Below, piece after piece: positions 3,844 to 38,744 of a stretch of DNA of 64,000 bases. Positions within the stretch are counted from its first letter, which is position 1, and the number at the start of each line of letters is the position of its first letter. This DNA is from Bradyrhizobium sp. sGM-13 (GTDB taxonomy: Bacteria > Pseudomonadota > Alphaproteobacteria > Rhizobiales > Xanthobacteraceae). The notes below the pieces were generated by a model. The model saw nothing but the letters and a program-made list of their open reading frames with translations. It was not told the DNA's origin and ran no database searches. Both the position numbers and the translations under genes were made by a program. The stretch is taken from the NCBI RefSeq assembly GCF_018398875.1, contig NZ_JAGWDK010000005.1, forward strand, positions 124,001-188,000, given 5' to 3'.

Positions 3844-3868
3844 GGAACTAAACGGTATATCGCCCGTT
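3844..3868 (+). promoter_or_regulatory. Predicted EcfG (general stress) promoter
   Basis: GGAAC at 3844-3848 and CGTT at 3865-3868 with 16 bp between them exactly match the EcfG/SigEcf consensus of alphaproteobacteria. The start codon of the next gene is 43 bp downstream of the -10 element, leaving a short leader. Confidence 0.65.
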
Positions 3869-16610: not shown

Positions 16611-16949
16611 CTACTGACAGATATGGCGGCGGCCGTCGCCACCGATGAATGTCGTTCCGGGTTGACAGACGAAGCCGCTATTGTAGTAGCGCGGCCCGTA
16701 GCCATAATTGTAGGCATAGACGTCGTTTCGGAACGGCGCCGTCGCAATCGCGCCGGCCGTGCCGATCGCGCCGCCAACCACGCCGGCGGCTATTTCACCT
16801 GGCCAGAATCCGCTGTGACGATGATAGATCCGGTCCTGAGTCTGCGGTTTACGGATAGCATCCGACCGTCCGTGAGGATCCTGCGCCAGTGCCGGCGCTG
16901 CGACCGCAGTCGAAAGAACCGCCGCTGCGGCTAGGAGCTTCAAGTTCAT
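16611..16949 (-). CDS. Small exported Gly/Tyr-rich hypothetical protein
   Basis: 112 aa from ATG 16949, supported by GGAGG 6 nt upstream. A signal peptide (NLKLLAAAAVLSTAVAAPALA) is followed by a short linker, a Gly-rich hydrophobic segment (GEIAAGVVGGAIGTAGAIA) of the glycine-zipper type, a Tyr/Asn-rich stretch, and a C-terminal pair of Cys around GTTFIGGDGRRHIC. Likely periplasmic or outer-membrane-associated. An EcfG-like promoter lies just upstream. Related at the C-terminus to the protein at 8564-8818. Confidence 0.65.
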   Translation of the reverse strand: MNLKLLAAAAVLSTAVAAPALAQDPHGRSDAIRKPQTQDRIYHRHSGFWPGEIAAGVVGGAIGTAGAIATAPFRNDVYAYNYGYGPRYYNSGFVCQPGTTFIGGDGRRHICQ

Positions 16950-16979
16950 GAGTTGCCTCCGTTGTACCAACTGTGGGCC

Positions 16980-17004
16980 AACCGGGGGCGCCTGCGACCG
17001 TTCC
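16980..17004 (-). promoter_or_regulatory. EcfG-like promoter
   Basis: On the minus strand GGAAC and GGTT are separated by 16 bp. The -35 is perfect and the -10 has one change from CGTT. It would start transcription about 24 bp before the ATG of the small exported protein. Confidence 0.45.
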
Positions 17005-17280
17005 GATATCGTGATCGATACGCTTCAAACGGATGTGAGGTTTCAGTTCCAGTTCCTGTTTAGCCAAGGCGCTCATCAGCAAACGCACGATGGTTTCGCA
17101 GCCGGGTCATCGGGCATTCTCGCGCACTGAAACCCATCAATGCTCGCGGTCGTGAGCTGCGCGATCACATTCCCGCTCGTTGCGCGATCCAGCAGCCGGC
17201 ACTTTGCGATCTGCAACCAAGGACGTGGACGCGCAGTGCAAGGGCCAGGCATGACGAGAGCGAGACTCCCGAGAAAAATC

Positions 17281-17306
17281 GGAACGGTATCAGCCTATCC
17301 GCCGTT
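17281..17306 (+). promoter_or_regulatory. Predicted EcfG promoter of a small RNA
   Basis: GGAAC at 17281-17285 and CGTT at 17303-17306 with 17 bp between: a perfect match to the EcfG consensus. Transcription would begin about 17312-17314, exactly where a hairpin-terminator structure starts. Confidence 0.65.
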
Positions 17307-17311
17307 TCTGG

Positions 17312-17384
17312 TTTGTCGTCCTTTTCCTCCCGAGACGACAATTTCTCGATGGCCCCGGCGCGCCGATTGCGTCGGGGCTTTTTC
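17312..17384 (+). ncRNA. Predicted stress-induced small RNA with anti-Shine-Dalgarno loop
   Basis: About 73 nt, bounded by an EcfG promoter and a terminator. Hairpin 1 is a perfect 8-bp stem (TTGTCGTC 17313-17320 / GACGACAA 17334-17341). Its 13-nt loop contains CCTCCC, complementary to ribosome binding sites. A short linker leads to the terminator hairpin. This layout resembles the CCUCC-loop small RNAs described in alphaproteobacteria (the 'cuckoo'/CcsR type), but I do not recognise this particular RNA. No protein frame here looks real. Targets are unknown; any mRNA with an exposed GGGAGG is a candidate, including genes in this window. Confidence 0.55.
17352..17383 (+). terminator. Rho-independent terminator of the predicted small RNA
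   Basis: Stem GCCCCG (17352-17357) / CGGGGC (17373-17378), continued inward by one G-U and three more pairs around a 7-nt loop, followed immediately by TTTTT. There is no annotated gene for it to serve except the predicted RNA. Confidence 0.85.
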
Positions 17385-17535
17385 CACCCTGCAGCGATCG
17401 AGATTAGCTCCTTGCGGTTCAGCAGCCAGCGGCTTGCAATGTCGGGTGCCGGACAGACGCCGTTCCCGAGAAAAGGATAGCGTTTAATATCAACGGTAAC
17501 CCTCCGGCAGCCGCGTGACTGAGAGACGCAAAGTG

Positions 17536-17553
17536 CTCCCGCCAATCCGGGAG
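17536..17553 (+). promoter_or_regulatory. Hairpin that sequesters the ribosome site of the Crp-type gene
   Basis: CTCCCG at 17536-17541 pairs perfectly with CGGGAG at 17548-17553. The second arm is the only Shine-Dalgarno sequence of the gene, ending 5 nt before its ATG. This could lower translation until the hairpin opens (temperature, ribosome or RNA binding). The stem is only six pairs, so the effect may be modest. Confidence 0.45.
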
Positions 17554-17558
17554 TTCTC

Positions 17559-18296
17559 ATGCAGTCTTTTTTAGGCAATTTGCTGCTGTCGTCTTTCGCC
17601 CCGCCGGACCTCGAGCTATTGCGGCCTCACCTCAGACCGGTCGTGCTGGAGTCCACCAAGATCCTGCATGAATCCGGTGAGAACATTGGCGGGGTCTACT
17701 TTCCATTCGATGCGGTGATTTCGCTCGTGGTGCTGCTTGAGGGCGGAGAAACCGTCGAAGCCGCCATGGTTGGCCGCGACGGTGTGATCGGCGCTTCGGC
17801 GGCTTTGGACGGCAAGCTGGCCCTGAATCGCGCGATCGTTCAAATCGGCGGACATGGCGTGGTCTGCGAGCCCGACGCATTCAAGCGCGTCGCGCTCGAC
17901 CGCCCGGGTATGCTTTCGATGATCATCAGTCACGAGCAGACGGTTTATGGCCAGGCGCAGCAGTCCGCCGCCTGCAACATCCTCCACGATTCGACGGCGC
18001 GGCTGTGCCGCTGGCTGCTGCGTGCGCGCGACCTGTCGGGAAGCGATACGCTCCCTTTTACGCAGGAGTTTCTCGCGGAAATGCTGGGTGTCCGGCGAAC
18101 CACCGTTTCCCCGGTGGCGCATACGCTGCAAGCTGCGGGAATGATCCGGTACCGGCGAGGCAAGATCGAGATCACCGACGTGGAAGCGCTGCGGGAAAGC
18201 GCATGCGAGTGCTATGAGACGGTTCGTGACAATTACGATCGGTTGCTGGGGCGCAACCGCAATAGCGGCCCTGATCACGCACCTCCGAAGGATTGA
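17559..18296 (+). CDS. Crp/Fnr-family transcriptional regulator
   Basis: 245 aa. An N-terminal cNMP-binding beta-roll (about residues 15-130; GENIGGVYFPFDAVISLVVLLEGGETVEAAMVGRDGVIG), a long dimer helix, and a C-terminal winged helix (FTQEFLAEMLGVRRTTVSPV...MIRYRRGKIEI). The phosphate-binding RxAR motif of true cAMP receptors is absent and no Fnr-type cysteine cluster is seen, so the effector is unknown. This divergent Crp-like type is common in Bradyrhizobium in many copies. Its ribosome site lies in a hairpin and a predicted small RNA lies 175 bp upstream. Confidence 0.88.
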   Translation: MQSFLGNLLLSSFAPPDLELLRPHLRPVVLESTKILHESGENIGGVYFPFDAVISLVVLLEGGETVEAAMVGRDGVIGASAALDGKLALNRAIVQIGGHGVVCEPDAFKRVALDRPGMLSMIISHEQTVYGQAQQSAACNILHDSTARLCRWLLRARDLSGSDTLPFTQEFLAEMLGVRRTTVSPVAHTLQAAGMIRYRRGKIEITDVEALRESACECYETVRDNYDRLLGRNRNSGPDHAPPKD

Positions 18297-38719: not shown

Positions 38720-38744
38720 AACGCTTGTCCTGTCGATTGGTTCC
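38720..38744 (-). promoter_or_regulatory. Predicted EcfG promoter of the hybrid kinase gene
   Basis: On the minus strand GGAAC (38744-38740) and CGTT (38723-38720) with a 16-bp spacer: a perfect consensus match. The ATG is at 38694, leaving a leader of about 20 nt. Confidence 0.65.

Follow-up and report, generated by a model that had tools for sequence, protein, structure and literature searches.

The window, by which we mean the whole 64,000-nucleotide stretch of Bradyrhizobium sp. sGM-13 DNA that was analysed, holds between two divergent genes a compact unit composed of an EcfG-type promoter, a hairpin presenting CCTCCC in its loop, and an intrinsic terminator (Table 1). The gene on one side encodes a small secreted-looking protein, for which a Pfam search gave nothing over the cut-off, and the gene on the other encodes a Crp-like helix-turn-helix regulator, the nearest relatives of which are from B. 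retamae (94%), B. murdochi (94%), and B. australiense (92%). The terminator of the unit is 175 nt ahead of the Crp-like gene and on the same strand. An EcfG-like site also lies ahead of the divergent gene, so that the stress regulon may include transcription in both directions from the intergenic region.

Table 1. Features of the locus, in window coordinates.
Feature	Position	Strand	Basis or remark
Divergent neighbour, small secreted-looking protein gene	16611..16949	-	start codon by eye; TTG at 16970 is an alternative
EcfG-like site GGAAC-N16-GGTT upstream of the divergent gene	16980..17004	-	one of 11 relaxed-pattern matches in the window (raw count)
-35 element GGAAC, EcfG-type	17281..17285	+	sequence; the same in 4 of 4 copies, including the deleted one
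-10 element CGTT, EcfG-type, 17-nt spacer	17303..17306	+	intact in 3 of 4 copies; at the deletion edge in the fourth
Small RNA, predicted, ~72 nt	17312..17383	+	start placed by the -10 box and end by the T run
Hairpin 1, 5' arm TTGTCGTC	17313..17320	+	its GTCGTC core does not vary among the three intact copies
Hairpin 1 loop CTTTTCCTCCCGA, with CCTCCC at 17326-17331, anti-Shine-Dalgarno-like	17321..17333	+	
Hairpin 1, 3' arm GACGACAA	17334..17341	+	unchanged in all four copies
Intrinsic terminator stem-loop and T5	17351..17383	+	stem ~17351-17379, T run 17379-17383
Hairpin CTCCCG/CGGGAG around the Crp-like gene's Shine-Dalgarno sequence	17536..17553	+	predicted fold
Crp-like helix-turn-helix regulator gene	17559..18296	+	PF13545, 7.5e-19

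An earlier note on this DNA had described a perfect GGAAC-N17-CGTT site, a CCTCCC loop, and a terminator with TTTTT. All are present in the window sequence, and on re-reading, the positions assigned to promoter, stem, loop, and terminator were exact to the single base. The segment 17310-17385 folds with a predicted energy of -32.8 kcal/mol (z -3.35), a stability equalled by 1 of 200 shuffles. Two ORFs overlap the unit, and in the DNA alignment the two intact orthologues are one T short at 17342-17344, a frameshift for both ORFs. A consensus scan of 16950-17600 found no sigma-70-like promoter.

The individual elements were weighed against chance. The EcfG-type motif alone (spacing 15-19) occurs four times in the window against 2.68 expected, and 28 of 100 shuffles reach four; being at chance level within the window, it was rejected as evidence in itself. 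The pairing of promoter and CCTCC across the source genome was likewise discarded, with 11 cases compared to 9 for a reversed control. A simple terminator scan of 16950-17600 returned one site, part of the terminator stem of the unit, versus 0.6 in shuffles, so by itself it does not mark the unit. The occurrence of promoter, hairpin, and terminator together is far beyond chance. Sixty Markov-resampled windows contained 125 promoters, none with a CCTCC-loop hairpin and none with a terminator. Among 595,859 bases of other loci, a possibly redundant set from which copies of the unit and loci retrieved with promoter patterns had been removed, there were 41 promoters, of which none had the hairpin, two had a terminator, and none had both. 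In the same joint test, the description for which was fixed beforehand but drawn from the same sequence, the window yielded four promoters, one with the hairpin, one with the terminator, and one with both. Other GGAAC-N16-CGTT sites in the window are found at 3844-3868 and 38720-38744, and a GGGGGAG..ATG sequence is present ~45 nt past the first of these. Four of the promoter-type matches elsewhere were fetched and read, and they resembled the starts of protein genes; two sit ahead of one common reading frame, which we take to be manganese catalase.

A DNA search of 265 genomes of the genus gave four matches including the source genome itself, three of them intact and one internally deleted. 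The two other intact copies match the B. retamae and B. australiense loci in sequence, score, and identity, and they have the same neighbours. Promoter, CCUCCC-presenting hairpin, and terminator are thus kept together in three related Bradyrhizobium genomes. The EcfG promoter consensus is GGAAC-N16/17-CGTT, and the promoters of all three intact copies conform to it. CCTCCC is retained in the loop of each intact copy and altered in the deleted one, and the 11 counted pairs of the terminator stem are invariant across three copies. The unit had no match in the plasmid collection, and the listed DNA matches to the terminator alone are ordinary terminators lacking the hairpin.

Conservation of stem and loop, which the earlier note had proposed as a check, is present in three genomes, but its distribution is narrow (4 of 265, including one broken copy). 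The 8-bp perfect stem described there exists in the window copy but not in the two intact orthologues, both of which have C.A at the second pair, where the window alone has T-A. The outer pairs of hairpin 1 vary between copies: the predicted fold of the retamae copy has 6 + 1 pairs, and that of the australiense copy has nine pairs through inward extension, some of them G-U, with CCCUCCC as the loop. The compensatory changes that the note had called for did not appear, there being none in the stems of the unit among the three sequences.

Constraint is clearest between the retamae and australiense copies, a comparison that excludes the window sequence. The two agree at every one of the 53 positions (53 of 53) in promoter, stems, and terminator, in contrast to 36 of 49 in the spacers, loops, and linkers (Fisher p 2.8e-5), and to 140 of 168 in the downstream flank (p 5e-4 against the structural positions). 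The window and australiense copies agree at 52 of 53 structural positions and 38 of 49 spacer, loop, and linker positions (p 0.0014), with 147 of 168 in the flank (p 0.03). Between the window and retamae copies, the excess constraint is not significant (52 of 53 versus 45 of 49, p 0.19), nor is it so relative to the flank (159 of 170, p 0.3). A noncoding RNA gene is supported by the joint structure beyond chance, by the constraint of 53/53 versus 36/49, and by the terminator between divergent genes; since that plus-strand terminator has no upstream gene to serve, an independent transcript is favoured. On these sequence grounds, we regard the unit as very probably a real RNA gene.

Five genomes with the same neighbourhood were compared, and the unit is intact in three and broken or lost in two. 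The deleted copy (genome G230) still has its terminator, -35 box, and 3' arm, with the -10 box fused to the stem; its internal deletion lies between two CGTCGT repeats, and its loop is CCCCCGG. B. murdochi has both neighbour genes and has lost the unit, with an intergenic deletion that extends up to a terminator remnant (L021 ~2766). In B. australiense, extra, poorly alignable sequence is found immediately upstream of the unit (L016 ~2412-2674). The unit could be a neutral or decaying remnant, that is, a hairpin of the dispersed family B described below that came to lie beside an EcfG-like site and is drifting without function in the clade. The loss in B. murdochi, the internal deletion in G230, and the presence in only 4 of 265 genomes would fit such a remnant, but its drift is difficult to reconcile with retamae and australiense structural positions that are identical throughout, against 13 differences in 49 spacer and loop positions, and we consider it rather unlikely.

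The position of the unit raises the question of local regulation, in which the RNA would regulate the neighbouring Crp-like gene, or the region would be the EcfG-dependent leader of that gene with an attenuator. Duplex energies of the loop were calculated for 67 ORF starts in the window, mechanically picked as ORFs of at least 100 codons, a screen that carries no genome-wide inference. The Shine-Dalgarno region of the Crp-like gene ranked second at -11.9 kcal/mol, compared with a mean of -7.3, which speaks for local action; the top partner, at -16.2, lies away from the usual Shine-Dalgarno place, and the leader of the divergent gene reached only -8.6. However, the Crp-like Shine-Dalgarno sequence lies within its own CTCCCG/CGGGAG hairpin, which is predicted in all five species compared (the B. 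retamae copy lacking one of the pairs), and its match to the loop, by reading, is shorter in the retamae copy; for these two reasons, we do not claim the Crp-like gene as a target. Local action is also opposed by the 175 nt between terminator and gene, and by B. murdochi, which keeps the Crp-like gene and its leader without the unit, so the unit is not simply the leader of that gene. Local regulation is, in our assessment, very unlikely.

A covariance model (R1) was built from the three intact copies. At E 0.05, it found matches in 23 of 257 genomes of the genus, four of which were the copies of the unit and two of which led to a dispersed CCUCCC-hairpin family, here called family B; the remaining 17 were judged by eye to be unrelated. 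Across the taxonomic family, R1 matched 6 of 149 genomes including its own, and the other five were also judged unrelated. The two loci derived from R1 have the same kind of stem and loop with a different terminator. A search of the 257 genomes with a core pattern allowing at most two mismatches found 14 matches, spread over 12 genomes, whereas the reversed control found none. These comprised the window unit and the retamae-type copy, 11 loci with one common layout, and one locus (L207) that was set aside as apparently coding and without a terminator. A second model (R2) was made from the 11 family-B loci, excluding the unit. It matched 88 of 257 genomes at E 0.01, but only loci scoring at least 45 bits were counted as members, giving 25 loci in 20 of 257 genomes, the 11 model-building loci included.

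Evidence for RNA structure within family B came from an alignment of 21 of the 25 loci, fitted to the R2 structure. Three pairs changed on both sides, each in one sequence only, a number reached by 1 of 500 shuffles, although sliding the partner by +3 also yields two both-sided pairs. One of these pairs is among the eight of hairpin 1, and two are among the eight of the terminator; hairpin 1 has one-sided, pairing-preserving changes at four further pairs. The 11 model-building members alone have one both-sided pair, which 93 of 500 shuffles reach and which is unremarkable. Upstream sequences of the family-B loci are varied, and no EcfG-like site was found within 80 nt upstream in any of the 21 members examined. 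None of eight copies scanned (L190, L192, L199, L202, L206, L208, L211, L212) has an Rfam match over gathering at the hairpin, and a single copy queried against the plasmid collection was without a match. Group II intron RNA domains were observed to begin ~85-130 nt downstream of two family-B hairpin-terminators (L190 1726-1894, L211 1648-1937). Some group II introns insert behind terminators.

The unit is the best place for R2 in the window, with 27.9 bits and an E-value of 1.2e-5 (genome E 0.0015), and the next match scores 11.7 bits. In the source genome, R2 at E 0.01 gives two matches, a full member on contig C74 (3644-3713) and the unit. The intact orthologues score 26.9 and 24.3 bits, the deleted copy 23.5, and two true mmgR copies ~20 bits. 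Matches of 24-32 bits are common across genomes, and the unit falls within that range, so its score is by itself no proof of kinship. Shared layout provides the better argument: family B has in common with the unit the GTTCGTCGT 5' arm, a loop with TTCCTCCCG, a GACGA 3' arm, and a terminator soon after, and in 5 of 21 members, by eye, TTCTG stands shortly ahead of the stem at a varying distance. The hairpin core of family B, a GTTCGTCGT arm, a CCTCCC loop, and a GACGA arm, recurs in the unit, with GTTCGTCGTC in the retamae and australiense copies and GTTTGTCGTC in the window. Kinship is likely because of the two shared arms and the TTCTG element, and the unit is probably a divergent family-B copy, differing in its shifted pairing register and in its terminator, which is GATGGCCCCGGCGC in the unit and ACTGGCCGCCC in family B.

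The preferred reading combines these elements. A family-B hairpin copy would have come under an EcfG promoter; EcfG would transcribe the predicted RNA during the general stress response; the CCUCCC loop would pair with GGAGG or GGGAGG Shine-Dalgarno sequences of target mRNAs; and the pairing would lower the translation or stability of those targets. EcfG control of the unit is likely, and repression through the loop is reasonably probable. For a self-standing, EcfG-driven sRNA gene that pairs with Shine-Dalgarno sequences, taken as a whole, we lean slightly in favour. A broader proposal, that family B consists of undescribed dispersed sRNAs that swap promoters while spreading, one copy of which, in this lineage, fell under the control of the general stress sigma factor and so turned from a generic anti-Shine-Dalgarno hairpin into a stress-response repressor, is offered tentatively, as somewhat doubtful. 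If true, the first reading would extend the general stress response (GSR) of one Bradyrhizobium lineage to post-transcriptional control, by a gene away from the GSR locus, in the vicinity of which GsrN-like genes have been sought (PMC5869019), and it would document promoter capture by an sRNA hairpin that is intact, broken, or lost depending on the close relative. Family B would be the more novel part and of wider general use than the single unit.

Comparison with known RNAs bears on how such an RNA would work. With Rfam 15, only two tRNAs in the window score over gathering, and nothing does at the unit. Its best match there is alpha-r14 (RF02344), at 35.1 bits versus a gathering score of 58.8; membership was rejected on that basis, and 12 weak matches in the genus (23-33 bits, 11 of 36 genomes) look unrelated by eye. 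Thirteen loci of BjsR1-10 of USDA 110, taken at their published positions and leaving out BjsR8 and two BjsR10 copies, were compared by eye, and none is similar to the unit; BjsR1 has a CCTCCC loop like that of the unit on a different stem. The genome taken as USDA 110 (G156) has no match to the family-B core pattern, and it does not appear among the matches listed for the DNA search with the unit or for R2. The suggestion of the earlier note that the RNA is possibly undescribed thus holds for Rfam 15 and the 13 BjsR loci compared.

Alpha-r8, or MmgR, is similar in being a short RNA with a terminator and a U-rich stretch followed by CCUCCC, and it is multi-copy in the genus: all 18 Bradyrhizobium genomes tested have mmgR/alpha-r8 over gathering, and the source genome has five such copies. 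The MmgR motif is unpaired between two hairpins in two aligned copies, in contrast to the hairpin loop of the unit. Identity with alpha-r8 (RF00519 suhB, gathering 41 bits) was rejected, the unit having no match up to E 5, and none of the eight family-B copies scanned reaches the RF00519 gathering score. The many alpha-r8 copies in Bradyrhizobium, together with a sponge counteracting alpha-r8 RNAs described in Caulobacter (PMC12559287), would lend some interest to a sponge or decoy, the loop of which binds other RNAs instead of Shine-Dalgarno sequences. The loop of the unit, however, carries the alpha-r8 motif CCUCCC itself and not a sequence complementary to it; it would therefore be a competitor for targets and not a binding partner of alpha-r8, and we consider a decoy extremely improbable.

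GsrN of Caulobacter is another close parallel, with an EcfG/SigT-type promoter and a C-rich 5' loop. GsrN is described as an activator of katG (PMC5869019), so a C-rich loop under EcfG control does not tell activation from repression. By analogy, and given the shared promoter class and C-rich 5' loop, the unit might free or stabilise a stress mRNA instead of repressing translation; a GsrN-like gene is predicted in B. diazoefficiens (PMC5869019). The GsrN loop, however, is reported to have six tandem cytosines (PMC5869019), in contrast to CCUCCC, the two being likened by description. Predicted GsrN homologues are typically near ecfG-nepR-phyR, C. crescentus itself being an exception according to PMC5869019, and the unit is not: the one NepR match of the source genome is on contig C7, and the unit is on C5. 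No GGAA[ACT]-N15-18-[CGT]GTT site occurs in 10.5 kb around that NepR, and among the NepR loci (3.1 kb) of eight genomes, GGAAC-N17-CGTT is found in one (G075). A GsrN-like activator is accordingly an unlikely reading.

The proposed repressor resembles in its manner of action NfeR1, an alpha-r14 RNA with anti-Shine-Dalgarno loops that silences mRNAs at translation initiation regions as described in PMC7143759. Both have CCUCC in hairpin loops; alpha-r14 is reported to carry three such hairpins and NfeR1 a sigma-70 promoter (PMC7143759), versus one hairpin plus terminator in the unit. Set beside these RNAs, the unit is a credible sRNA of a familiar working type, restricted to one lineage and probably driven by stress.
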